DNA of 64,000 nucleotides from Paraflavitalea soli (GTDB lineage: Bacteria > Bacteroidota > Bacteroidia > Chitinophagales > Chitinophagaceae). This document shows, in pieces, positions 40,883 to 53,033 of the stretch (position 1 is its first letter; every line of letters begins with the position of its first letter). The notes beneath the pieces are model-generated. The model saw nothing but the letters and a program-made list of their open reading frames with translations, did no database searches and was not told where the DNA came from. A program made the position numbers and the translations under genes. The stretch is taken from assembly GCF_003555545.1 (NCBI RefSeq), contig NZ_CP032157.1:8126546-8190545 (forward strand), read 5' to 3'.

Positions 40883-42061
40883 TTAAAATCGCCAGTTGAT
40901 GAATGGCAAACTACGTTTGCTATTTACATTCCATAATCCAATCTGCACCCCTTTCAGGTCTTTGCATACATTCAACAGCCCGATCTGAAGACCCCTGCCT
41001 TTGAGCGCCCGGTTGGTAATACCGGTGATTACTACCCCTTTGAATTCATCCGTCCTGTTCTGCGTTCCTGTGATGTGCAGGCCTGTCATTTCATTAACCA
41101 TACTGATGGCTCCGTTGATGCTTATGCCCCGTACCCGCATATCATCGCCTATCAGCCCGCCCGCACTTATGCTCAAGCCGTTGAGAGATGAATGGACGTT
41201 TGATTTGTCGAGCGTGTCCGTCATTTTAGCCAGATCTGTATTGGCAAACATATACGCGATACCAAACATGCCCAAAAACGCAGAGATACCATCGACACTG
41301 AGGTTCATACCATTTATCACCAGTGGATTTCCATCATCCATATTGGTTTGCAGCCCCACAGTGAGGCCGTTTATTTCCGTAGCTTTCGAAGGCGTGAACC
41401 AGGCTATATTCTTTACAAGCCTGGGTCTTTTCTTTGGAGCCGGACGCGCGTAGTAGTTCTTTTGAGCAGTGTCTTTATGCTCCCCCGGCATGGCACTTTC
41501 GGAGTAATAGGTAATACCCCGTTGTTCATATACCTTGTCCAGCCCCTGGGCAGTAAGGTAAGATACCAGTTCGTAAACGACCGAATAACTGCTGTCTGCT
41601 GCATAGGAAATGATCTTTTCCGTAGGAAAGAACCTGGGCGTATTACTCTTTTCAAACACATACCGGCACTTGCTCAATGAGTAAGTCCCATAAAGTCCAA
41701 GCAGGCGGTCGCCGATCAGCCTGATCTTTTTAAGCTGCATGGGATGCAGCGCAAGCGTATCCGTCTGCCAATCTTTCCACAGCACGATGGTATGGTTGAA
41801 TGCACTCGTATAATAGATCGAATCATTCCTGATATCAGTTACCCTGATCGATAATACCTGCTTGTTTTTTAAAACGAGGTCATAAATACAATTGCGGTAG
41901 ATGTAAAAAGCATTTTTGCCAGGCCGGTAATCATTTTTTTCAAAATGGGCCTCCCCGTTCCCGGGCACAAAATAAAGGTTCTGGCTGCTGTCTGCCTGCG
42001 CCAGGCAAACCGTGTTTAAACAAGTTAAACATAACAGGATCATTGCAAGAATACGTATCAT
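40883..42061 (-). CDS. Secreted protein with LA_2272-like surface repeats
   Basis: From the ATG at 42061 a signal peptide is visible (MIRILAMILLCLTCLNTVCLAQ); the frame extends to 42088 with extra residues that precede the signal. The N-terminal half is charged and unplaced; the second half (about 230-390) repeats G-(L/I)-x-(I/V)-x-G-x-x-N (GLSISAGGLIGDDMRVRGIS, GLHITGTQNRTDEFKGVVIT, GITNRALKGRGLQIGLLNVC, LKGVQIGLWNVN), as in LA_2272-type surface repeat proteins. Function unknown. Divergent from the HTH regulator next door. Confidence 0.62.
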   Translation of the reverse strand: MIRILAMILLCLTCLNTVCLAQADSSQNLYFVPGNGEAHFEKNDYRPGKNAFYIYRNCIYDLVLKNKQVLSIRVTDIRNDSIYYTSAFNHTIVLWKDWQTDTLALHPMQLKKIRLIGDRLLGLYGTYSLSKCRYVFEKSNTPRFFPTEKIISYAADSSYSVVYELVSYLTAQGLDKVYEQRGITYYSESAMPGEHKDTAQKNYYARPAPKKRPRLVKNIAWFTPSKATEINGLTVGLQTNMDDGNPLVINGMNLSVDGISAFLGMFGIAYMFANTDLAKMTDTLDKSNVHSSLNGLSISAGGLIGDDMRVRGISINGAISMVNEMTGLHITGTQNRTDEFKGVVITGITNRALKGRGLQIGLLNVCKDLKGVQIGLWNVNSKRSLPFINWRF

Positions 42062-42088
42062 GAGCAGGGTTTGAGGTGATACCCACAA

Positions 42089-42287
42089 ACCTATCTTAGC
42101 CTGCCCGTAACGCCTAATGGGTATCTGCTGCCCTTAGGCCTGCTTTTGCAGCTGGCCATAATTCCCGAAGGTCCGGGAAGCAGGATTACGGATTATCCAT
42201 ATTCATATTGGCTATTCGTCCGTTGAATGGCAGAAATCCGTAAAGAACACTTGGGTATTACGGATTTTCAGTAATTTCCTTTCGTAA
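42089..42287. promoter_or_regulatory. Intergenic region with three TTACGGATT-type repeats
   Basis: ATTACGGATT at 42185..42194 and again at 42257..42266; the reverse complement AATCCGTAA at 42235..42243. The last two form an inverted pair of 9-base arms with a 14-base spacer just before the HTH gene. A likely autoregulatory operator of that gene. Confidence 0.5.
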
Positions 42288-43283
42288 ATGGAAACAAAAC
42301 AATTGCAACAGCAGCTTTTCCGGCATTTAAAGGAAAGCCTGCCATCCCACCTGTCCCTCGTAGATGAATTGTGCCAGCTGCTCGACCTGAGCGCCGATAG
42401 CGTATACCGCCGTATCCGGGGCGAAAAGCCCGTTACCCTTATCGAGCTAAAACATATCTGTGAGCATTACCACCTGTCCCTGGATCAGCTATTGCAGTTA
42501 AAGAACGATTCAGTACTTTTCCGGGCGCCCGGTATCACCAACCCTTCCATTCCTTTTATCGAGCACATGAAAGGAATGCTCGAACAGTTCAGGTACTTCA
42601 ACTCCTTCAAACAGGGTGAGATCAGCTACCTCTGCAAAGACGCCCCCTTCTGGTATTTTTTCCTTTTCCCCGAAATGGCAGCCTTTAAGACCTTTTTCTG
42701 GTGCAAAACCATCAACAATGAGCCTGCTCTTGCCAATCAATCATTCTCACTCGAAGAGCATCGGTTCGAAGAGTGCTTCGCCATTGGCAAGCAGATACTG
42801 GAAGAGCATAGCCGGATGAATACCGTGGAATTGTGGAACCTCGAAAGTATTCACAGCAGCATCAATCAGATTGCCTACTACAGGGATGCAGGTATTTTCA
42901 GGGATAAGAAAGACCTGCTGGCTGTTGTTGAATCCTTTATTCAAATGATCGATCATTTGCAGGCCCAGGCAGCCAAAGGCGTGAAGTTTATGCCAGGTGC
43001 TACAGATATTGGGCATAGGGGTCCTATTCAGTTTTATGTAAATGAACTCATCCTGGGCAACAATACCATTCTTCTTAATCTCGATAATAAAAAGATATCC
43101 ATGATCACCTATAGTGTATTCAGTTACCTGATTACGCAAGACAATCGGTTTGCCGCCAAAGCATTTGATACATTTAATACCTTACTAAGCCGGTCAACAT
43201 TGGTGAGCAGATCGGGTGAAAAGGACAGGAACAGGTTTTTTAATACGTTGCGCGATAAGGTCGATCAGCTAAGAACCCAATGA
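42288..43283 (+). CDS. HTH transcriptional regulator (XRE-like) with a large C-terminal domain
   Basis: 331 residues. An N-terminal helix-turn-helix (about 20-65: LVDELCQLLDLSADSVYRRI, then ELKHICEHYHLSLDQLLQL) and a 260-residue helical effector domain (HMKGMLEQFRYFNSFKQGEI ... FAAKAFDTFNTLLSRSTLV) without recognised sensory domain. Similar regulators are common and poorly studied in Chitinophagaceae. Three TTACGGATT-type repeats upstream suggest autoregulation. The neighbour at 42061 is divergent, so it may be the regulated partner. Confidence 0.75.
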   Translation: METKQLQQQLFRHLKESLPSHLSLVDELCQLLDLSADSVYRRIRGEKPVTLIELKHICEHYHLSLDQLLQLKNDSVLFRAPGITNPSIPFIEHMKGMLEQFRYFNSFKQGEISYLCKDAPFWYFFLFPEMAAFKTFFWCKTINNEPALANQSFSLEEHRFEECFAIGKQILEEHSRMNTVELWNLESIHSSINQIAYYRDAGIFRDKKDLLAVVESFIQMIDHLQAQAAKGVKFMPGATDIGHRGPIQFYVNELILGNNTILLNLDNKKISMITYSVFSYLITQDNRFAAKAFDTFNTLLSRSTLVSRSGEKDRNRFFNTLRDKVDQLRTQ

Positions 43284-43317
43284 TTTTCTTCTAAATGCCA
43301 TTTGACAGAAACGAGGC

Positions 43318-43348
43318 TTGTTTTTATTCTGCTTTAGGCGTTCTTTTG
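43318..43348 (+). promoter_or_regulatory. Bacteroidota-type promoter before the 43359 gene
   Basis: TTG at 43318..43320, spacer of 20, then TTCTTTTG (43341..43348), one base from TAnnTTTG, 10 bases before the ATG. Confidence 0.4.
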
Positions 43349-43358
43349 CGTCCGGATT

Positions 43359-43838
43359 ATGCATAAAAAGAAATTAATATTATTTATTATCAGTTTGGTG
43401 TTCATCATCGGATTCTTTCAGCTTCCACAAAATCGGACATGGTTGAAGACTGTCCTCTCATATGGCCGTGATTTTCAAAACCAACAAAATCATCTTGACC
43501 GGGAAACCCGGATGCGCAGGCGGTTCGGGAATGACTATACTTTTTCAAAAGATATAGCTACCTCATTCGACAGGAAAGGTATTAAGGACAAAGTTCTGGT
43601 ATTAATGCCGCCCACCACCTATTTCACGAAGATGGGTATTAAGTATCATGTACCGGAGCCTGCTGTGTTTTATTATTACACAGGACTAAAAACGATCTGG
43701 GCCAATAGCAGGGAGGCGATCAATGCCGGATGGTATGTAAGGGTAAGTGCGGGCAAAATTATAATAGACAGTGTGGCTGATAAAAAAGACCTGCAGGATA
43801 CAATTGTTGCATTCCAAAAAATGGGTATATCCCTATGA
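43359..43838 (+). CDS. Small membrane-anchored protein paired with a membrane glycosyltransferase
   Basis: 159 residues. One N-terminal membrane helix (LILFIISLVFIIGFFQL) precedes a soluble domain of about 130 residues (FGNDYTFSKDIATSFDRKGI, VLVLMPPTTYFTKMGIKYHV, EPAVFYYYTGLKTIWAN). No known domain recognised. Its stop overlaps the following gene by four bases (ATGA), which implies the two act together. The shape resembles a periplasmic companion of a polyprenyl-phosphate-sugar glycosyltransferase, but this is only context. Confidence 0.7.
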   Translation: MHKKKLILFIISLVFIIGFFQLPQNRTWLKTVLSYGRDFQNQQNHLDRETRMRRRFGNDYTFSKDIATSFDRKGIKDKVLVLMPPTTYFTKMGIKYHVPEPAVFYYYTGLKTIWANSREAINAGWYVRVSAGKIIIDSVADKKDLQDTIVAFQKMGISL

Positions 43839-45217
43839 TCAATTGGCTAATGATTTTGTTACTCACTTTGCTCCAGCTACTAACAGGAATGGGTTTTGTT
43901 AGGCTGTTCAGAATTTGGTTGAGACCGGGTATACTACTGCCTTTATGGATATTGTGTGGGGTGATGGTATTTTCGTTCATGCCATTTTTGCTACAACTGC
44001 TGTACATCCCCCTCACCTGCATCAATATCTTTATAGCCCTGGTAGCTGCCTGCTTATTACTAAATATAAAATACAAAACGGGTCTGGCACAACTGGTAAG
44101 ACTGGTCAGGGAAAGCCGTTTTCAGATCAGGTTGTATGAGATCCCTTTTCTGCTGGTCATCGTCCTGGTAGCGGCTGTGAGCGTTTGGCGTTGTTTTTAT
44201 TATCCTCCCACACCCAGGGATCTTACTTCCGGTGCAGAAGTTATTGCTGAATACGCGGTGAAAGAGAAAACAATGATCAATTCAGTTTTCACGGTAAACC
44301 TGGAATCCACTAATAACCAATTTAAGCCTCCTTTTATTGCTAGTTTACAGATCATTTATAAGTATGCTGGTTTTGCTTTTGGACAGGTATGGCTTAGCAC
44401 CATATTTATTTGCTTCCTGGTATTTTTGTATCATGTACTCTGTCTGCGTATCCACAGGGTATTAGTCGGTTTGTTGATGGTCATTTTGCTTGCCATACCG
44501 GAAATGTACGCATACACCTTTATGGCATTATTTGATTACAGCAACGCTGTCTTTTTCTTCCTGGGTACTTTTTTCCTTTTTGAATATTTTAAGCATAGAA
44601 CAAGGAATTATGTTGCTATGGCTGGTATGCTCATGGGTTTTGCCACCTATATCCGTTCTGAAACGGTGATCCTGATTGGCTTTATGACGCTTTCACTGGC
44701 ATGGTATTATTTAAAAAATAAGAAAAGCTTTACCAGGTTCCTTATTGACGGCACATGGTTTTTACTACCTGCCGTACTTTTTTACCTGTTGTCAATTACC
44801 CTTTATTGCAATTATTACCTGCCAGCAAAATACGATATAGGAGAATTGGTAAATAGAAACCTGTTTGATCTTGCTCCTTTATGGGAAAGGATAACTACCA
44901 TGAATAAAGAATTGATCTTTAGTGCGCAGGGGATCACGCTGTACGGGTACAGCTTTTTTATTTTCTTGCTTGTACTTTTGGGTGATCTTATTTACTCTTT
45001 CAGGCTGAATCCTGAATCCCGGAACTGGTTATTTGCTGTTTTTGTAATTTACCTCGGTATGCCAATGCTTGGTTACCTGTTGCCATTGCTGGATATTAGT
45101 AATTCCACTAAAAGAGGATTGTTTAAAATATTTCCCTTGTTGATACTTTATATGGGGACAAGTACTTTACTGATCCGTCTTTCCGAAAAAATAAAACGAT
45201 GGGAAGAAGCCCGGTGA
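43835..45217 (+). CDS. Polytopic membrane protein, GT-C/GT39-like
   Basis: 460 residues with about eleven hydrophobic helices. Large aromatic-rich loops such as YYPPTPRDLTSGAEVIAEYA and ESTNNQFKPPFIASLQIIYK follow the first helices; GT-C glycosyltransferases (GT39/ArnT) carry their catalytic acidic residues in comparable loops. A strict DD or ED pair was not verified, so the call is by overall shape. It overlaps the previous gene by four bases. It ends one base from a convergent gene for a GT2 of the dolichol-phosphate-mannose synthase kind, a usual source of donor lipids. Confidence 0.6.
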   Translation: MINWLMILLLTLLQLLTGMGFVRLFRIWLRPGILLPLWILCGVMVFSFMPFLLQLLYIPLTCINIFIALVAACLLLNIKYKTGLAQLVRLVRESRFQIRLYEIPFLLVIVLVAAVSVWRCFYYPPTPRDLTSGAEVIAEYAVKEKTMINSVFTVNLESTNNQFKPPFIASLQIIYKYAGFAFGQVWLSTIFICFLVFLYHVLCLRIHRVLVGLLMVILLAIPEMYAYTFMALFDYSNAVFFFLGTFFLFEYFKHRTRNYVAMAGMLMGFATYIRSETVILIGFMTLSLAWYYLKNKKSFTRFLIDGTWFLLPAVLFYLLSITLYCNYYLPAKYDIGELVNRNLFDLAPLWERITTMNKELIFSAQGITLYGYSFFIFLLVLLGDLIYSFRLNPESRNWLFAVFVIYLGMPMLGYLLPLLDISNSTKRGLFKIFPLLILYMGTSTLLIRLSEKIKRWEEAR

Positions 45218-45967
45218 TCATTGCAGGCCTTTGAATATCCTCGATTTAACAATGCCGGTTTTCTGAAGAAAATACTGAAAACTTACACGCAGTACCCCTG
45301 CTCCATATTGGAGACTCCTGCTGAAATTAATGGAAGAGGCCTCATCAAAATATTTGGTGGGACAGGTTATTTCTGCGATCTCAAATCCTTTATAAAATAT
45401 CTGGGCCAATAGCTCATTGTCGAAAATGAAGTCATCTGAATTTTGCTCAAAAGGAATGGCCAGTAATACCTCCTTATGATAGGCCCTGTATCCGGTATGG
45501 TATTCAGACAATTTCTGCCACATCAATAGATTTTGAGCAGCTGTGAGGAAGCGGTTGAAAAAATACTTGTACAAAGGCATACCACCTTTTAGGGCGCCTT
45601 TTCCCAATATCCGGGAACCCAGTACTACCGGGTACACCTTATTAGCAATTAAATAGGCCATAGGCCCTATGAGGGCCGGGGTATATTGATAATCGGGGTG
45701 AAGCATTACAATGATATCTCCACCAACTTCCAGCGCTTTTCTATAACATGATTTCTGGTTGCCGCCATATCCTTTATTCTTTTCATGGCTTATGATATGC
45801 GCAATGCCGATCGCCCTGGCCACTTTAATCGTATCATCTTTACTGGCGTCATCCACCAGGATTACCTCATCTACGATAGTGCGGTCAATTTCTTTATAAG
45901 TTTTTTCCAATGTCAGAGCTGCATTATAAGCAGGGAGAACAACGACTACTTTTTGACCATTGACCAT
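45218..45967 (-). CDS. GT2-family glycosyltransferase (polyprenyl-phosphate sugar synthase-like)
   Basis: 249 residues from the ATG at 45967; the frame continues to a TTG at 45991 but the family starts with VVVVLPAYNAALTLEKTYKE. GT-A motifs are VILVDDASKDDT, NKGYGGNQKSCYRKALE, MLHPDYQYTPALIGPM (D-x-D-like HPD) and a C-terminal SSINFSRSLQYGAGVL region. No membrane tail is present. It begins 26 bases after the stop of the MNIO gene on the same strand, so it may be co-transcribed with the RiPP-like genes; whether that is functional or read-through is unclear. Confidence 0.86.
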   Translation of the reverse strand: MVNGQKVVVVLPAYNAALTLEKTYKEIDRTIVDEVILVDDASKDDTIKVARAIGIAHIISHEKNKGYGGNQKSCYRKALEVGGDIIVMLHPDYQYTPALIGPMAYLIANKVYPVVLGSRILGKGALKGGMPLYKYFFNRFLTAAQNLLMWQKLSEYHTGYRAYHKEVLLAIPFEQNSDDFIFDNELLAQIFYKGFEIAEITCPTKYFDEASSINFSRSLQYGAGVLRVSFQYFLQKTGIVKSRIFKGLQ

Positions 45968-45993
45968 GAAATACCTGTGATTGAGCCGCAATA

Positions 45994-47157
45994 TTAACTA
46001 ATAAATCCAACAAACCCCGCTTTCCATTTCTGAGCTATTTTCATAGCCGTTTCGATCATGGCCGGATCCCAGTTTTCCACCTGCCATTCAGAACAGGCCA
46101 GCGATGACTGGCCCAGCAGCGTCCTGGCTTCCTCATAAGAATGAGATGTTTCCAGGATAGTGGAAAGTGCTGCTTGTTGCTCGTAAAGTCCTTCATCCTC
46201 AACTGGCGGGCCCATTACGATGGGCGATAAAGGTAAAAAAGAGGCGAGGTTGGTTAAATAAGCAGGTTGACTTTGGCGGCGGATGATACTTTCCATCTCC
46301 AGAAAATCTGCATAGAATTGTTGTTTACTTTCTATGCTCTCCAATCCATTGCCCAATTGTTCCAGCACCACATATTTGAGATGAGGACATGCCGGTATCA
46401 CCGTTTCCAGTAATTGAAATACTGCTGCAGGTACCGCATCATCATGCGTATCCCTCCTGATCGTACGGCCTTTCTCAATCTGCGAATGATCCCAGCTGCC
46501 GCCGGAAATATGTATTTCCCGCACCCTGTCCAAGGGATAAAGCCCGATAAGCTCTTCGAGAGCGATAGAAAAGTTGTGCAGCTGGCACCAGAGATTGTGG
46601 AGGTCTAATATGATAAAGCCATTCACAGGTTCAAGCAATTTGTCCAGGAACCTGCCATGACGTTTCACTTCATCCAGTGAGTAAGAAAATGCCAGGTTTT
46701 CAAGTCCTACCGGACATTGGCAGGCGGCGTATATCCGCTTCAGTCTGTCTTGTCCAATAGCTAGTGTGGTTGGCGTATAAGGAATATTCAACGGCGCGCC
46801 CTGGTGAAAGTTCTTGCCTGTCATGAACCCAAAATGCTCAGTAATATGATCAAACTGAAATTCACTACAGGTCTGTTGTAACGCTTTTAACCAGGCTTCC
46901 TGTTCAGGAAGCCATTTGCCGGAGAAAAGTGAAAAGAAAACCCCATGACCTATGAGCCTTTTCTCCTTACTGAATGCAGTCAGTAATTCCTGGAACCAGG
47001 TTGGGATTTCCTGTACTTTGTATAGTGTATCAAAAGACCATTCCAACGCTTCTATTCTTGATTCCTCCATCAGGGGAAGGCAGGCGCCAAGAATATCATT
47101 ATCCAGGTTGCAGGCTACGGTAGATAGTATTTTGGACACTTGGCTTGAATTGAGCAA
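45994..47157 (-). CDS. DUF692/MNIO-family multinuclear non-heme iron enzyme, probable RiPP maturase
   Basis: 387 residues. Barrel motifs of the DUF692 family are all present: GHGVFFS (His71), ITEHFGF (Glu107, His108), GLENLAF (Glu153, Asn154), DLHNLW (Asp185, His187, Asn188), EIHISGG (His216), RDTHDDAVP (Asp236, His238, Asp240) and VLEQ (Glu266). Enzymes of this family use two or three irons to modify cysteine-containing peptides. About 90 extra C-terminal residues (from 295) follow the usual barrel. Start is a TTG at 47157, because TAA lies immediately upstream in frame; a GTG at 47139 is possible. Preceded by a likely precursor gene 21 bases away. Confidence 0.92.
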   Translation of the reverse strand: MLNSSQVSKILSTVACNLDNDILGACLPLMEESRIEALEWSFDTLYKVQEIPTWFQELLTAFSKEKRLIGHGVFFSLFSGKWLPEQEAWLKALQQTCSEFQFDHITEHFGFMTGKNFHQGAPLNIPYTPTTLAIGQDRLKRIYAACQCPVGLENLAFSYSLDEVKRHGRFLDKLLEPVNGFIILDLHNLWCQLHNFSIALEELIGLYPLDRVREIHISGGSWDHSQIEKGRTIRRDTHDDAVPAAVFQLLETVIPACPHLKYVVLEQLGNGLESIESKQQFYADFLEMESIIRRQSQPAYLTNLASFLPLSPIVMGPPVEDEGLYEQQAALSTILETSHSYEEARTLLGQSSLACSEWQVENWDPAMIETAMKIAQKWKAGFVGFIS

Positions 47158-47178
47158 TTATAATGTTCACTGAAGCGA

Positions 47179-47349
47179 TCATCCCATACCGCAGGCAGGA
47201 CAGGGATAAGGAGGTTTGTTTTTCTCTTCTTCTTTCGACTCCTTTTTCGCCTTCGAATCTGGCTGGTCCTTTTCTTTTTTGCAGGAAGTGGTTGTTTGTA
47301 CGGCAATGCCGATTAAGATAGCGCTGAGTAGCGTTTTTGGCAATTTCAT
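47179..47349 (-). CDS. Probable RiPP precursor: 56-residue lipoprotein-like peptide with CPACGMG tail
   Basis: ATG at 47349 to TGA at 47181..47179. Residues 1-22 (MKLPKTLLSAILIGIAVQTT-TS) look like an export signal with Cys23 as a lipobox-type cysteine (TTSC). Residues 24-46 are almost only Lys, Glu, Asp and Ser. The end is PPYPC50PAC53GMG with two cysteines three apart. The size, the charged linker, the Cys-rich C-terminus and the next gene, a DUF692/MNIO enzyme 21 bases downstream, fit a substrate of that enzyme. Export would place the modified tail outside the cytoplasm. Not tested; close homologues could not be searched. Confidence 0.75.
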   Translation of the reverse strand: MKLPKTLLSAILIGIAVQTTTSCKKEKDQPDSKAKKESKEEEKNKPPYPCPACGMG

Positions 47350-47479
47350 TTTTGCATCTTTAAAAAATGAGTAATTAAGCTGATTGACAGGCTTTCTTTC
47401 AAAAACGTGGCATGCGAAGAGAACTTCATAGGAGAAAAGACTAATTGCTATGCGCAGAGTACCTTACAAAAGACACTTA

Positions 47480-47755
47480 TTATTTTCTTTTGAAATGCTT
47501 GCTTTTTTTATATTGGTTGTTGACCAGTACATTAATGGAATCATAAGAAACGTCAATAAGCTGGCTGATCCTATCCAGCTCTTCCAGCGTAAATTCATGC
47601 ACATTATTGATCAACCGCGTCATTCGGTTGTTATTCGTGCCCAGGTCCCCTGCTAAAACTGTCTTGGGCAAATAGGTGAATATTTGCTTGAATTCGGTAA
47701 TATACCCCGATTCAATCAATTGTTTTACCCCCGTATAGCGTTCATCCTTTGTCAT
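47480..47755 (-). CDS. Small HTH-like protein upstream of the RiPP-like genes
   Basis: 91 residues: GVKQLIESGYITEFKQIFTY, LPKTVLAGDLGTNNNRMTRL, then TLEELDRISQLIDVSYDSIN and a basic tail (KKSKHFKRK). The middle segment (AGDLGTNNNRMTRLINNV) has the length and spacing of a Cro/XRE-type recognition helix. Similar small proteins occur in Bacteroidota without assigned function. It is on the same strand as the precursor and lies 130 bases upstream, so it may regulate or simply neighbour it. Confidence 0.6.
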   Translation of the reverse strand: MTKDERYTGVKQLIESGYITEFKQIFTYLPKTVLAGDLGTNNNRMTRLINNVHEFTLEELDRISQLIDVSYDSINVLVNNQYKKSKHFKRK

Positions 47756-48370
47756 GCTCCAAAGAAAAAAACAAATGATAAATAAATTAGCATAAAGTAC
47801 AGATCATTCTTTTTTAGTTACAATGCGACTTGTTAAGGTGATACTTCGTATTATGTTAATGACAGGTCGTATTGATTACTGTTATAGCCGATGTAACGTA
47901 GTGCCAGAGAGCATAACATAGATTCTATACTTAGTCACTTTGTAAGGTGAAAAAGATGCTATGGTAGCAACAAGGGGAGGTTTTGAACAAACAAAAATAC
48001 TAAATATATTAGTATTCGGGGTGAAGGAGACAATAAAAATAACAGTCTTTGACACGGATCAAAACGCTCCGATCGTTTTTTTGACTACCAGTTCCTTATA
48101 CATAGCGAAATTGCCCGGATCTGTTTCATGCAGTTCCATAATGTGGATCGGGTGTGGATAATCGTTGTGATTTTTGTTGCTTTCCTACCGATCGGATTAC
48201 TTTTCCCCCTGTACAGTACAGGATATATGGCTTTTTTTGGTACTATTATTGTAACTAAAATTCAGCTAAACGAATCCCTTTTCTCCTTCACCGTATAGAA
48301 ATTCTGCCGTCCTATTCTTTCATGTGCCCAAGTCTTTGTATGAAAAAAACTGTACTTAAAATTTTTCATA
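47756..48370. other. 615-base AT-rich gene-free stretch between divergent genes
   Basis: No convincing ORF. A hairpin AATACTAA-atata-TTAGTATT lies at 47996..48016, too AT-rich to be a good terminator and placed as a possible operator. Both flanking genes start at its edges, so promoters for the HTH-like and coiled-coil genes should be here; no clear TAnnTTTG at the expected distance was seen. Confidence 0.5.
47996..48016. promoter_or_regulatory. AATACTAA inverted repeat in the divergent gap
   Basis: Perfect 8-base arms with a 5-base AT loop, in an otherwise unremarkable region. Confidence 0.3.
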
Positions 48371-49768
48371 ATGTCATTATTGTTGTTGGTCTCCCTGTAT
48401 GAGTTCAGGCAGTTTCTCCAGATCGTTTTGTGGATAGCTGTACCTGCTACGCTGATTGCTGTTGCCCTTACCATTTTCTTACATTACCGCCGCAAGAAAA
48501 GACAGGGAGGACTGGAGCTGGCCCTTCATGACGAAAATGGCTGGTCCGAAACTATACTGAGAAATCCCGCTTCATCCGCCTTACTGCAAACCGCGGGAGG
48601 TGATCATCCCGAAGCCTTGCCAGACTGGTTGGCCAGCGCTAATCCCGACAATACCCCCCTCCTAAAGAAATATGAACACGAAGTGAGGCGCTACAGGGAA
48701 AACTATGCCATCCTGGAACAGGATTTCCGGGAGCTGGAAGAAAGGTATACAGACTTGCGCAACAAAGCCTATCACACAGATAAAGAAGGAGATATATCTC
48801 TTGTAGCCCAATTGCAGAAAGAGATCCTAACCTACAAAGAAAAGATCAGCCGGTTGCAACACGCAGCTGTGGTGCATGATGGAGCCGGTGATGACGAGGC
48901 TGCCAAAATGCAGCAATACCATGCACAACAGATAGAAGATCAGGCCATTCAGTACAAGCAGGAAAATGAACACCTGGCTGATCAACTACAACAGGTGCAA
49001 CAACTTTTACAGCAATTACAGGAAGAGAACAACCGCTTACAGCTCTTGGTAATTGCCGGCAATACCGCAGCAGTGGCCGTTGAACATGGAAACGATGAGC
49101 GTATCCAGGCTTTACAACAGCTCCTGGCGCAAACCGAATCAGAACGGAAAGCATTGAAAGAGCAACTGGCTGAGCAGGAATACCTACCCGATGTACTCGA
49201 AGAAAAAAGAGTCCATATTGATTTTCTGCAGCGCCAGCTTGAACAACGCATAAAAAATTACCATGTGTTGGAGCAGCAGGCCGGCGATTCGGCTGCTCAG
49301 TTACAACACATGCAGATATCTATGAATGAGTTTGACCAGCAAATTCAGCGCCTTACCGGAGAATTGAAGGCTCAGCAACAACAAGCTGCCGAATCCCAGG
49401 CTGCCCTCCGACACAGCCGGGAAGAAGGTTTGCAACAGCAGCAGATCATCCTCACCAAAACTGGCCATATTGAACAATTAGAAGAGAACATAAAAGAATT
49501 GAAGGAACAACAGGGCCTGTTTCAAACCGAAATCGCTGAACAGCAGCAGTCTGTACAATCCCTCCAGCAACACCTGGCCAATGAACATCAAAAAGCAGCA
49601 GCTTTGGAAACAAAACTGGAATTGAGCAGTCAGCTCTTGCTCAGGATCTATGCCGAACTGGCCAAATCACTGGGCAACCACGCATTGGTGAATACCAGTG
49701 CGCAAGCTGAAATAGCCGCAGCAAACGGAGAGATAAATGAACCATTCCAATTACAGGCTTCACTGTAA
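48371..49768 (+). CDS. Membrane-anchored coiled-coil protein
   Basis: 465 residues. One N-terminal membrane helix (FLQIVLWIAVPATLIAVALTIFL) followed by a basic stop-transfer HYRRKKRQ. From about residue 100 to 440 nearly every heptad carries Leu/Ile/Gln with abundant Gln and Glu (LQQVQQLLQQLQEENNRLQL, LEENIKELKEQQGLFQTEIA), a long parallel coiled coil in the cytoplasm. No enzymatic domain recognised. Comparable proteins act as spacers or polarity/division scaffolds; this is a guess from shape. Reasonable GC and no sign of frameshift. Gln-rich composition makes low-complexity matches unreliable. Confidence 0.75.
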   Translation: MSLLLLVSLYEFRQFLQIVLWIAVPATLIAVALTIFLHYRRKKRQGGLELALHDENGWSETILRNPASSALLQTAGGDHPEALPDWLASANPDNTPLLKKYEHEVRRYRENYAILEQDFRELEERYTDLRNKAYHTDKEGDISLVAQLQKEILTYKEKISRLQHAAVVHDGAGDDEAAKMQQYHAQQIEDQAIQYKQENEHLADQLQQVQQLLQQLQEENNRLQLLVIAGNTAAVAVEHGNDERIQALQQLLAQTESERKALKEQLAEQEYLPDVLEEKRVHIDFLQRQLEQRIKNYHVLEQQAGDSAAQLQHMQISMNEFDQQIQRLTGELKAQQQQAAESQAALRHSREEGLQQQQIILTKTGHIEQLEENIKELKEQQGLFQTEIAEQQQSVQSLQQHLANEHQKAAALETKLELSSQLLLRIYAELAKSLGNHALVNTSAQAEIAAANGEINEPFQLQASL

Positions 49769-49797
49769 CATATAGTCATAATCATATAGTACTAAGG

Positions 49798-49857
49798 GTA
49801 TACCCATACTGGGCGGCATCCCATGGGCTGCAGGAAGCAGGCCACGCGTGGGTATTA
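49798..49857. other. Possible structured intergenic RNA
   Basis: ATACCCA (49800 onward) can pair with TGGGTAT about 45 bases later, and inside them GCGGC pairs with GCTGC around CCCATGGG. Lies between two plus-strand genes. Could be a terminator-like structure or leader; no family recognised. Confidence 0.3.
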
Positions 49858-49939
49858 TGACAATTTTAACATTTTGCCCTGGCTGCCGCTGCACGGCGAT
49901 TCGTTATAGTTTCGTTAACTTACAACAAATTGCCCCCGT

Positions 49940-50671
49940 ATGAGAAAGTATGCCCCCGCAAACAACTTCATCATTACGCTACTGGTACTAATCGTTGTCG
50001 CCGCATTTCATCCTCCCATCAGCAATATTTCCCTCACCGGCGCCTGGCAATACCAGGAAAATGGTCGGGAAGAAACAATGACCTTTGTAGATGGGTACTT
50101 CGTGCATGCCGTTTATGACAAAGCTGGCAAACAATTTCTCTATACCTGGGGAGGTCCTTATAAGGTGAAAGATGATCAAATAGAAGTCACCACCGAATTT
50201 AATACACAGCAAAAAGATAAAGTAGGGGAGACAGTGGGCATTACCTGGTCCGAAAATAATGATCAATTGGTTGTTACCGTAGAAGGCAAAGAAAAGACCT
50301 GGAAGCAACTGGACAAGGGATTGGGTGATCTGGCAGGTGTTTGGCGCATTGCCGGCCGCAAGCAGGGAAACCAGCCTGTTACCATGCCCCTGGGCCCCAG
50401 GCGCACACTCAAAATATTATCAGGTACCCGTTTCCAATGGGTCGCCATCAATATCGACACCAAAGAATTTTCCGGAACTGGTGGCGGTACCTACACCTTT
50501 AAAAATGGTAAATACACCGAAAATATTGAGTTCTTCAGTCGCGATAACAGCCGGGTAGGGGCCTCCCTCACCTTCAACGGAAAGGTTCGTGGCACCGAAT
50601 GGGACCATACAGGCCTGAGCTCCAAAGGCGATCCCATTGATGAAATGTGGAAAAAACTCAATGCAGAATAA
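49940..50671 (+). CDS. Exported protein with two lipocalin-like repeats
   Basis: 243 residues. A signal/anchor helix (FIITLLVLIVVAAFH) is followed by two similar halves, each starting with G-x-W (SLTGAWQYQENGREETMTF and DLAGVWRIAGRKQGNQPV) and rich in beta strands with T-Y-(K/T)-x-x-(D/N) elements, as in lipocalin-like or DUF-type secreted proteins of Bacteroidota. The second half ends EWDHTGLSSKGDPIDEMWKK. Function unknown. A TTG-CCCCC element before the ATG resembles other short-leader starts in this window. Confidence 0.72.
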   Translation: MRKYAPANNFIITLLVLIVVAAFHPPISNISLTGAWQYQENGREETMTFVDGYFVHAVYDKAGKQFLYTWGGPYKVKDDQIEVTTEFNTQQKDKVGETVGITWSENNDQLVVTVEGKEKTWKQLDKGLGDLAGVWRIAGRKQGNQPVTMPLGPRRTLKILSGTRFQWVAINIDTKEFSGTGGGTYTFKNGKYTENIEFFSRDNSRVGASLTFNGKVRGTEWDHTGLSSKGDPIDEMWKKLNAE

Positions 50672-50815
50672 AGTCCGAAAACTCAGTAAAGTCGGAAAGA
50701 CCGAAACCAATACCTTTCTCCGACTTTCCGACTTCCAGACTAATTATGCACAATATGGGGATTCTTACGGTCTTTCCTCCCGATAGCTATCGGGACGACT
50801 TCCCGACTTTCTTCT
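50672..50815. repeat. Intergenic repeat family A, copy 3, with an 18-base palindrome
   Basis: Words AAAGTCCGAAAACTCAG, AAAGTCGGAAAGACCG on the left; CTCCGACTTTCCGACTT and TCCCGACTTTCTTC on the right. At 50778..50795 is the perfect palindrome TCCCGATAGCTATCGGGA. It runs up to the thyA promoter region. Confidence 0.7.
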
Positions 50816-50827
50816 TAACTTGCGCTC

Positions 50828-51640
50828 ATGCAACAATACCTTGATCTGCTGCAGCATATTATTGATAAAGGGGTTACCAAAACCGATCGTACCGGCACCG
50901 GTACTACCAGTTGTTTTGGCTACCAGATGCGCTTCGACCTGCAGCAGGGATTTCCCGTGGTTACTACCAAAAAACTTCACCTCAAAAGTATTATTTACGA
51001 ACTACTCTGGTTCCTGCAGGGCGATACCAATACCCGCTACCTGAAAGAACATGGCGTAAGTATTTGGGATGAATGGGCCGATGAACAAGGCAACCTGGGA
51101 CCCGTATATGGCAAGCAATGGCGTAGCTGGGCAGGCGCCGATGGTAAGACCATCGACCAGATCAGCGACGCCCTCAAACAGATAAAGAACAATCCCGACA
51201 GCCGTCGGATCATTGTGAGCGCCTGGAATGTAGCCGAATTGCCTGAAATGGCTTTAATGCCCTGCCATGCCCTCTTCCAGTTCTACGTAGCGCCGGGTGT
51301 CAATGGCGGAAAAGGCAAACTTTCCTGCCAGCTGTACCAGCGTTCGGCAGATGTATTCCTGGGCGTGCCATTCAATATCGCTTCTTATGCACTCCTCACC
51401 ATGATGATGGCGCAGGTATGCGACCTGGAACCAGGTGACTTCATCCACACCTTCGGTGATGTGCACCTGTACAGCAACCACGTAGAACAAGCTACCTTGC
51501 AATTAACCCGCACCCCTTATGCTTTGCCGGTAATGAAACTCAACCCTGCTGTTAAAGACCTTTTCCAATTTACCTTCGAAGATTTTACATTGGAAAATTA
51601 CCAATCCCATCCGGCCATCAAAGCGCCGGTAGCAGTTTAA
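50828..51640 (+). CDS. thyA: Thymidylate synthase
   Basis: 270 residues. Typical order: [20 protein letters not shown] (dUMP phosphate Arg region), [54 protein letters not shown], the active-site Cys in [33 protein letters not shown] and HLYSNHVEQ. Reductive methylation of dUMP with methylene-tetrahydrofolate. It is followed by folA, which regenerates tetrahydrofolate, after 8 bases: a standard co-transcribed pair. TTAACTTG a few bases before the ATG suggests a short leader. Confidence 0.98.
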
Positions 51641-51648
51641 AATCATCT

Positions 51649-52149
51649 ATGAATATAGCCTTAGTTGTAGCCGCTGCAGAAAACAACGTCATTGGTAAAA
51701 ACAACCAATTACTATGGCGCTTGCCCAATGATACCAAGTTCTTTAAGAACACTACCTGGGGCATGCCGGTGATCATGGGCCGGAAAACCTTTGATTCATT
51801 GGGAAAGCCCCTGGCCGGCAGAACCAATATCGTGATCACCCGCCAGAAAAACTGGACGGCGCCAGGTGCTCAGGTCGTGGCAACCCTGGAAGAGGCAATG
51901 GCTGCCGCCGCTGATACCGATGCCAAAGAAGCCTTTGTAATTGGGGGAGGAGAAATTTACGCCCTGGCATTACCACTGGCCCAAAGGATCTACCTCACCA
52001 GGGTGCATACTACCCTCGAAGGGGATGCTTATTTTCCCGAATTTGATGAACAACAATGGCACCTCTTGTCCAACCTTGATTTCCCCGCCGATGAAAAGCA
52101 CGCCTATGCATATAGCTTTCAGGTGTGGGGACGGAAGACTGAGGGCTGA
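51649..52149 (+). CDS. folA: Dihydrofolate reductase
   Basis: 166 residues. Family features: NIALVVAAAENNVIGKNNQLLWRLPNDTKFFKNTT with the substrate-binding Asp (LPND), MGRKTFDSLGKPLAGRTNIV, the NADPH loop VIGGGEIYALALPLAQRIYL and a C-terminal strand. Reduces dihydrofolate with NADPH. Eight bases after thyA in the same frame strand, so expressed together. Confidence 0.97.
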   Translation: MNIALVVAAAENNVIGKNNQLLWRLPNDTKFFKNTTWGMPVIMGRKTFDSLGKPLAGRTNIVITRQKNWTAPGAQVVATLEEAMAAAADTDAKEAFVIGGGEIYALALPLAQRIYLTRVHTTLEGDAYFPEFDEQQWHLLSNLDFPADEKHAYAYSFQVWGRKTEG

Positions 52150-52191
52150 TGTTAGGGCATGACCTCCGGAGCATGAAATAGATATCTTCGG

Positions 52192-52231
52192 TGTATTCTT
52201 CTGTATTCTAAATTCTGTATTCTATATTCTC
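52192..52231. repeat. Low-complexity TATTCT repeat before the methyltransferase
   Basis: TGTATTCT, TGTATTCTAAATTCTGTATT, then CTATATTCTC: four degenerate TATTCT/AATTCT words a few bases before the ATG at 52236. A similar word block lies at about 59646..59672 before the DUF58 gene. Confidence 0.6.
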
Positions 52232-52235
52232 TTCC

Positions 52236-53033
52236 ATGTTCTCACCCTGGCAGTTAGCTAAAAAATACATACACTATTACTTTACAGCTTCCAATGGAAA
52301 GGGACATGGCGTTCATTCCCCTTTTGTTTTTGAATTCATCAAAAAAGTACTGAACGATAAACGCCACTTTGCTGCCTACGACCAGGTAGAAGCCTTACGC
52401 AAACAATTATTAGCCGATAATACCTGTTTACAGGTAGAAGATTTGGGCGCAGGGTCTGCCATCAGCAATACCAGTAAGCGCCCCATAGCACGCATTGCTA
52501 AATATGCAGCCAAATCAACGAAGTTCAGCCAGCTCCTATTTCGCATCGTCCAATATTACAAACCCGCCACCATACTGGAATTGGGCACTTCGCTGGGTAT
52601 ATCGGCTTCCTATATGGCATTGGCCAATCCTGCTGCCAGCGTCATCACAGGCGAGGGGAGTATCGCTATAGCAGAAAAGGCTGCTGCCAATTTCCGGCAG
52701 CTGGCAATACCTAACATAGAACTCGTACCCGGTAATTTTGATAATACCCTGCCGCAGATCCTGGCCCGCCATACCCCCGTTGAACTGGCATTCCTCGATG
52801 GCAATCACCGCCTCGAACCCACCCTCCGTTATTTTGAGGCCCTGCTGCTCCACACTACAGAGCATTCCATCCTTATCCTGGACGATATCCATTGGAGCGA
52901 AGAGATGGAACAGGCCTGGCAGCAGGTGCAGGACCACCCCGCTGTAACGCTTACCATTGACCTGTTTTTTATAGGCCTCGTGTTCTTTCGCAAAGACTTT
53001 AAGGTAAAGCAGCACTTCTCCATCCGCTTTTAA
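52236..53033 (+). CDS. SAM-dependent methyltransferase, class I (O-methyltransferase-like)
   Basis: 265 residues. N-terminal helical region (YIHYYFTASNGKGHGVHSPF, VFEFIKKVLND) then the Rossmann fold with the SAM motif TILELGTSLGISASYMALA, GEGSIAIAEKAAANF, LAFLDGNHRLEPTLRYFEAL and a strand with DDIHWSEEMEQAW. This arrangement recurs in Bacteroidota as an uncharacterised methyltransferase. The first 60 residues resemble a substrate-binding cap. Substrate unknown. No obvious partner gene; folA upstream is unrelated in function. Confidence 0.85.
   Translation: MFSPWQLAKKYIHYYFTASNGKGHGVHSPFVFEFIKKVLNDKRHFAAYDQVEALRKQLLADNTCLQVEDLGAGSAISNTSKRPIARIAKYAAKSTKFSQLLFRIVQYYKPATILELGTSLGISASYMALANPAASVITGEGSIAIAEKAAANFRQLAIPNIELVPGNFDNTLPQILARHTPVELAFLDGNHRLEPTLRYFEALLLHTTEHSILILDDIHWSEEMEQAWQQVQDHPAVTLTIDLFFIGLVFFRKDFKVKQHFSIRF

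Follow-up and report, generated by a model that had tools for sequence, protein, structure and literature searches.

Published relatives of the locus studied here are the precursor/MNIO pairs ChsA/ChsH of Chitinophaga sancti, DybA/DybH of Dyadobacter crusticola and HymA/HymH of Hymenobacter, each of which gave a -4 Da product (Chen et al., PMC12636315). According to that report, a 2025 preprint that made this kind of system public, NMR of the DybA product showed a macrocycle and a hydantoin at the C-terminal CPACGMG with one thiol left free, the last seven residues are enough for recognition, and DybA is lipidated via the lipoprotein pathway in E. coli, hence the name 'DAG-RiPPs' (PMC12636315). 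One Cys thiol of the published relative is used in the macrocycle, and absorbance of the oxazolone/thiooxazole-type chromophore known from methanobactin and bufferin was not seen; the myxobacterial pair ArlA/ArlH gave a mixture of free-thiol and S-methylated forms (PMC12636315). In a survey of MNIO systems the chryseobasin precursors make up one cluster (PMC12452194). The precursor/MNIO system is therefore already described, and the pair examined in the current study adds one member to a recently published family; a literature search found no paper on the Paraflavitalea pair itself.

The precursor gene

The pair lies within a 64,000-nucleotide stretch of the genome of Paraflavitalea soli (Chitinophagaceae), referred to here as the window, and its features are collected in Table 1. 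An earlier note, made from the raw sequence, had pointed to a 56-codon ORF upstream of a DUF692/MNIO gene on the same strand, with a signal-like N-terminus, a Lys/Glu linker and a C-terminal CPACGMG, and all of these are present as claimed. The ORF starts with ATG and its product is MKLPKTLLSAILIGIAVQTTTSCKKEKDQPDSKAKKESKEEEKNKPPYPCPACGMG. It matches the NCBIfam model NF050125 ('chryseobasin-related MNIO class RiPP peptide', curated cut-off 40 bits) with 88.2 bits (E 4.2e-25) over positions 1-56 of 56, and the C-terminal CPxCGxG typical of ChrH-subfamily precursors is found directly before the stop codon. Differences by codon position in the precursor coding sequences of three congeners (L035-L037) number 9, 7 and 32, 5, 3 and 25, and 10, 10 and 32, so that third positions dominate. 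Because of the NF050125 match and this third-position bias, the ORF is considered a real, selected gene.

A DNA pattern search for C-P-x-C-G-x-G-stop across the 8.44-Mb genome returned three matches. Two of them finish with TGG instead of a stop codon, which leaves the precursor as the sole true CPxCGxG-stop ORF by exact pattern; the reversed control pattern gave 0 matches in the same genome. No further orphan substrates were found in the genome by this exact pattern, which is blind to other cores. To call the ORF overlooked, as the earlier note did, was partly fair, but a curated NCBIfam model exists for exactly such peptides.

Table 1. Positions of the features discussed in the text. Plain positions refer to the window; those preceded by a locus label refer to loci of relatives.
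Feature	Position	Strand	Basis
Precursor peptide gene (ChrA-related, DybA/ChsA type), 56 aa	47179..47349	-	ORF list, NF050125, third-position bias in congeners
Predicted signal peptide (residues 1-22) with lipobox-like end ...TTS ahead of Cys23	47284..47349	-	Sequence; Cys also in other MNIO-proximal precursors
Cys23, predicted lipidated +1 residue of mature peptide	47281..47283	-	Sequence and analogy with DybA
Lys25 (+3, with Cys as +1), possible lipoprotein export signal	47275..47277	-	20/20 precursors and LES optimum
Core motif CPACGMG, residues 50-56, predicted macrocycle/hydantoin site	47182..47202	-	Same motif modified in DybA, ChrA
ChrH-like MNIO (DUF692), 381 aa from GTG (probable start)	45994..47139	-	PF05114, NF050165, model, solved folds; start from congeners
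Family-2 glycosyltransferase, directly downstream, judged outside the system	45218..45991	-	PF00535
91-aa HTH-like gene, upstream, context only	47480..47755	-	HTH_26 18.8 bits, under 22-bit cut-off
Extra upstream precursors (CITCGRG, CPPCGRG or CPACGMG)	L051 9118-9599; L052 9200-9713; L045 9529-9753; L038 8315-8837; L040 8685-8912; L041 9248-9472

The adjacent MNIO enzyme

The enzyme matches Pfam PF05114 with 100.2 bits and NF050165 (ChrH) with 404.5 bits, which is under the 600-bit equivalog cut-off of the latter model, a value passed by 0 of 294 genomes of the same family. Other NCBIfam enzyme models scored lower (BufB 80.4 bits, cut-off 310; HvfB 63.2; ApyH 32.9; MbnB 12.6, cut-off 325), and the enzyme is thus an equivalog of neither BufB nor MbnB, the types that belong to copper-chelating MNIO peptides. 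Since 404.5 bits lies below 600, the enzyme is described as ChrH-like (DybH/ChsH type) rather than as a ChrH equivalog, and DybH/ChsH rather than the curated ChrH model serve as the guide to its exact chemistry.

The start listed first for the enzyme is TTG 47157, and the 21-base gap to the precursor given in the earlier note depends on it. The enzymes of two congeners are first listed from a GTG (MPRILSS, MPKILSS) that lies 38 and 35 bases past the precursor, and GTGTCCAAAATACT occupies the corresponding place of the window (one of the two was also aligned as protein). Because the congener enzymes start at the aligned GTG, translation probably begins at GTG 47139, which would lengthen the gap to 39 bases and give an enzyme of 381 aa.

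A structure model of the enzyme, built from nine sequences, has a mean pLDDT of 88.7. Among solved structures the eight best matches comprise TglH, MbnB and the DUF692 protein 3bww, and after these come sugar epimerases and other TIM barrels. The sequence alignment to TglH (8hci) spans the EN, LDLHN, HxxGGSW and DxHD stretches. Columns that are invariant across 12 relatives include H71, H108, E153, N154, D185, H187, N188, E214, H216, D236, H238 and E266, which resemble the iron ligands of MNIO enzymes. After the barrel the model has helices at 322-337, 341-350 and 365-379 (perhaps also at 275-295), that is, the C-terminal helical domain of the ChrH subfamily, all members of which are reported to carry an extra C-terminal domain (PMC12636315).

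Occurrence in related genomes

Precursors over the NF050125 cut-off were found in 20 of the 294 same-family genomes, and six more have weaker matches only (E up to 0.001). A full-length ChrH-like gene (at least 365 bits) is present in 19 of the 294, all of them among the 20 precursor genomes, and no ChrH-like match in the remaining genomes exceeds 102.7 bits. In the 20th precursor genome (G271), which is 67% complete, the precursor lies about 80 bases from a contig end. The earlier note had suggested a search of RiPP models and related genomes for such an ORF beside DUF692 genes; besides the NF050125 match, this revealed a precursor directly upstream of the ChrH-like gene, on the same strand, in 19 of 19 genomes. 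Family membership, this co-occurrence and the published biochemistry on relatives together lend strong support to its proposal that the ORF encodes the substrate of the neighboring MNIO.

Further afield, a phylum-wide sample of 395 genomes yielded three precursors that pass the cut-off, only one of which was new. Among 21 named loci that were found via the enzyme, 17 have a CxxCGxG-ending ORF not more than 100 bases upstream of the match, L090 has two such ORFs about 440 and 690 bases upstream, and none was found upstream of the enzyme in L096, L102 and the remnant L105.

Several observations lie outside this pattern. The precursor model gave weak matches to parts of longer frames (141-434 aa) in L022-L027, which probably reflect similar lipoprotein signals. 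MNIO genes distant from ChrH (L075-L084 and others, 43-82 bits) occur in 25 of the 38 genomes with matches. Five MAG loci from Acidimicrobiales (Actinomycetota; L091, L092, L093, L099, L104) each carry a ChrH-like gene with an upstream ORF ending in CPACGMG or CPPCGLG (5/5), and all five are among the 17 loci that have this ORF not more than 100 bases from the match; binning errors are possible for these contigs, and the enzyme match of L092 holds a stop codon. The main text of PMC12636315 makes no mention of Acidimicrobiales or Actinobacteria. In Hymenobacter volaticus a pair is carried by a 330-kb plasmid (NZ_CP095062.1; L111 5788-7116), near replication and ParA genes. Its precursor scores 89.5 bits to NF050125 and is missing from the distributed gene table of the plasmid, a table known to be incomplete.

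Co-loss of the pair and retention of its neighbors

Five genomes of the same genus were compared (G000, G162, G214, G085, G259). Three have the pair, one has a remnant and one has neither gene. The remnant is found in G085 (L074, about 1402-1821; also L105), evidently Paraflavitalea sp. CAU 1676, where a broken MNIO gene without a recognizable precursor is flanked by intact HTH-like and glycosyltransferase genes. The position of this remnant between retained neighbors indicates that precursor and enzyme were lost together, and that the neighbors are independent of the pair.

Precursor and MNIO aside, no ORF cluster occurs in more than five of the 20 loci. Ten selected neighbors that were scanned in relatives include ATP synthase subunits, an acyl-CoA dehydrogenase, a sigma factor and a TMEM260-like protein, and eight further neighbors scanned in the window include thymidylate synthase, dihydrofolate reductase, a methyltransferase and a BetR-type HTH protein. 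No partner-protein-type family was detected among the neighbors scanned from 40883 to 53033, in keeping with the ChrH-subfamily DAG-RiPPs, whose MNIO has no obvious partner-protein gene, and the window neighbors scanned likewise gave no match to ChrI-, ChrE- or ChrP-type families or to SusC/SusD. The last two are reported to be frequent near such pairs (PMC12636315).

In a PADLOC defense scan precursor, enzyme and glycosyltransferase remained without a match, and the 91-aa gene gave two weak HTH hits. As this HTH-like gene is kept in G085 without the pair, a role as dedicated regulator is unsupported. Promoter and terminator scans stayed within the range of shuffled sequence (10 vs 7.4 +/- 2.7 and 2 vs 2.6 +/- 1.6, respectively), and Rfam found nothing at gathering score over 44000-51000.

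Predicted lipoprotein signal and the +3 lysine

Cys23 comes after a hydrophobic stretch and the lipobox reads TTSC, with Thr at -3, where the classical residue is Leu. A lipoprotein-type signal, as proposed in the earlier note, is the probable reading in view of family membership, co-occurrence and the published biochemistry on relatives, and the peptide is probably membrane-anchored.

All 20 MNIO-proximal precursors, which represent 19 distinct sequences and include L048, whose enzyme is off the contig end, have Lys at position +3, while +2 and +4 vary. The corresponding figure is 7 of 20 for other lipoprotein-like ORFs of the same loci, a background set that was drawn with a rough regular expression and contains at least one orthologous pair. 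As the background rule is rough, the set contains orthologues and the compared precursors are homologous, the excess of Lys is an indication and not a test. Outside the family, +3 Lys is absent in L086 (Rufibacter, Hymenobacteraceae) and in L088 and L089 (Saprospiraceae), and present in the Hymenobacter plasmid copy, L111. The surface-export optimum described for Capnocytophaga canimorsus is C-X-K-(D/E)2-X, with Lys alone replaceable there (PMC5080379), and the C-K-K-E-K-D of the precursor fits this optimum in part only. The conserved Lys, a single residue, weakly suggests display on the outer face of the outer membrane.

Tandem precursors

Two or three precursors are present in six of the 20 loci (Table 1). 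Across the 29 motif-bearing ORF ends, CPACGMG is the commonest core (19), followed by CPGCGMG (3), CITCGRG (3), CPPCGRG (2), CPACGQG (1) and CLACGMG (1). The Arg-bearing cores (n=5) are all in upstream copies, never in the copy adjacent to the enzyme. Three of the nine upstream copies are without a lipobox-like Cys, and only one has +3 Lys. The five Arg-core copies and the middle copy of L051 score under the NF050125 cut-off and so escape the curated model.

Three loci of one genus (L046 8543-8953; L047 8296-8706, oriented; and the counterpart in L045) have an ORF of 134-136 aa directly upstream of the precursor. It has a lipoprotein-like N-terminus (C-S-K-D-M-F) in two of the three, and the copy that was scanned, from L046, has no Pfam match.

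It is conceivable, if rather doubtful, that in this family of bacteria the macrocycle is tethered by lipid and displayed on the surface, with +3 Lys as its address, and that in the expanded operons of some relatives the single enzyme forms different rings on two or three peptides (CPACGMG, CITCGRG, CPPCGRG), which would be sent out as surface lipoprotein, as another lipoprotein, or secreted. If true, these peptides would represent a small combinatorial set of surface ligands.

Proposed maturation and alternative explanations

We are highly confident that the two genes form a minimal RiPP-lipoprotein ('DAG-RiPP') cassette within the ChrH/DybH subfamily, for which the following steps are proposed. 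By analogy with relatives, modification by the MNIO would take place in the cytoplasm, at the CPACGMG that ends the 56-aa precursor, and these last seven residues are very likely cyclized by the adjacent iron enzyme. If the reaction is that of DybA/DybH and ChsA/ChsH, the motif would undergo a four-electron oxidation (-4 Da), in which Cys50 and the former Cys53 become joined in a small sulfur-bridged ring, with a hydantoin and one free thiol. Export, lipidation of Cys23 and removal of the signal would then follow, as predicted from relatives. What remains would be a lipopeptide of 34 residues that carries the modified ring beyond a charged spacer, at the distal end, and that +3 Lys perhaps directs to the outer face of the outer membrane. 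With low confidence, a role as a cell-surface ligand or binding head appears likelier than one as a metallophore.

The earlier note had read the tail in terms of metal binding or redox use, a reading that drew no support from the present analysis. CxxC motifs often bind metals. In its specific form, that the modified peptide binds copper or another metal in the manner of methanobactin, bufferin or oxazolin, this reading can appeal to other MNIO peptides that chelate copper (PMC12452194), but in the published relative one thiol is consumed, the other is free, and oxazolone/thiooxazole absorbance is reported to be absent (PMC12636315). As no metal-related gene was found among the window neighbors scanned with Pfam either, it is considered unlikely. 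The product could also be S-methylated like chryseobasin (ChrA/ChrH, +10 Da) instead of retaining a free thiol, since the best named model for the enzyme is ChrH and ArlA/ArlH gave both forms (PMC12636315). Against this, the precursor is of the shorter type with an extra Cys, no ChrI-, ChrE- or ChrP-type family accompanies it among the window neighbors scanned, and the three Bacteroidota pairs reported from outside Chryseobacterium (DybAH, ChsAH, HymAH) all gave -4 Da (PMC12636315), which makes S-methylation very unlikely.

Whether the downstream glycosyltransferase is a third biosynthetic gene, glycosylating the peptide, can be judged from its distribution. Its first listed start is 2 bases after the MNIO stop, and it follows the pair in all three same-genus loci having the pair. 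However, 17 of the 20 loci lack a clustered homologue (one of these, L048, ends too early), and the best NCBIfam matches, all far under their cut-offs, are polyprenyl/dolichyl-phosphate sugar transferases. The gene is moreover intact in G085, where the precursor is gone and little of the MNIO is left, and it is argued from this retention that it is not part of the system. A gene found beside the pair in only 3 of 20 loci and kept where the pair is lost was rejected as a pathway gene, the chance of such a role being slight in the extreme. Finally, the precursor is short, charged and partly of low complexity, as might be expected of a chance ORF or of an unmodified small lipoprotein merely situated beside the enzyme. 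Both are contradicted by the curated family match, the third-position bias, the co-occurrence with the enzyme and the co-loss, and their probability is negligible. The two-gene lipopeptide cassette remains the preferred explanation.

One outcome of this analysis is that a genuine RiPP precursor can be recognized from raw sequence. The main interest lies in the role of the lipidated ring, a family-wide question that can be approached concretely through the +3 Lys, the tandem precursors with several cores, the loss of both genes in a congener and the plasmid copy.

Comparison with known systems

The enzyme shares the MNIO fold with methanobactin (MbnABC), pearlin (TglAHI) and bufferin (BufABC) biosynthesis, its model best matching 8hci/8hi7 (TglHI) and 7fc0/7tcw/7tcr (MbnB). 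These systems, as described, differ in core motifs and products, and each has a partner protein. Chryseobasin (ChrA/ChrH/ChrI, PMC10214503) is closer, with the same CPACGMG core and a homologous enzyme (NF050165, 404.5 bits). Unlike the Paraflavitalea precursor, ChrA is reported to be longer, to have a signal peptidase I signal and to become S-methylated (PMC10214503, PMC12636315), and ChrI-, ChrE- and ChrP-type families were not seen among the window neighbors scanned. The ChsA/ChsH and DybA/DybH pairs, of which ChsA was compared through its published description, belong to other genera, and in the present Paraflavitalea pair a glycosyltransferase gene follows. With these pairs the present one shares a short precursor in which a signal-like stretch is followed by an additional middle Cys, a terminal CPxCGxG (CPACGMG in DybA), and a ChrH-like MNIO that stands without an obvious partner-protein gene.
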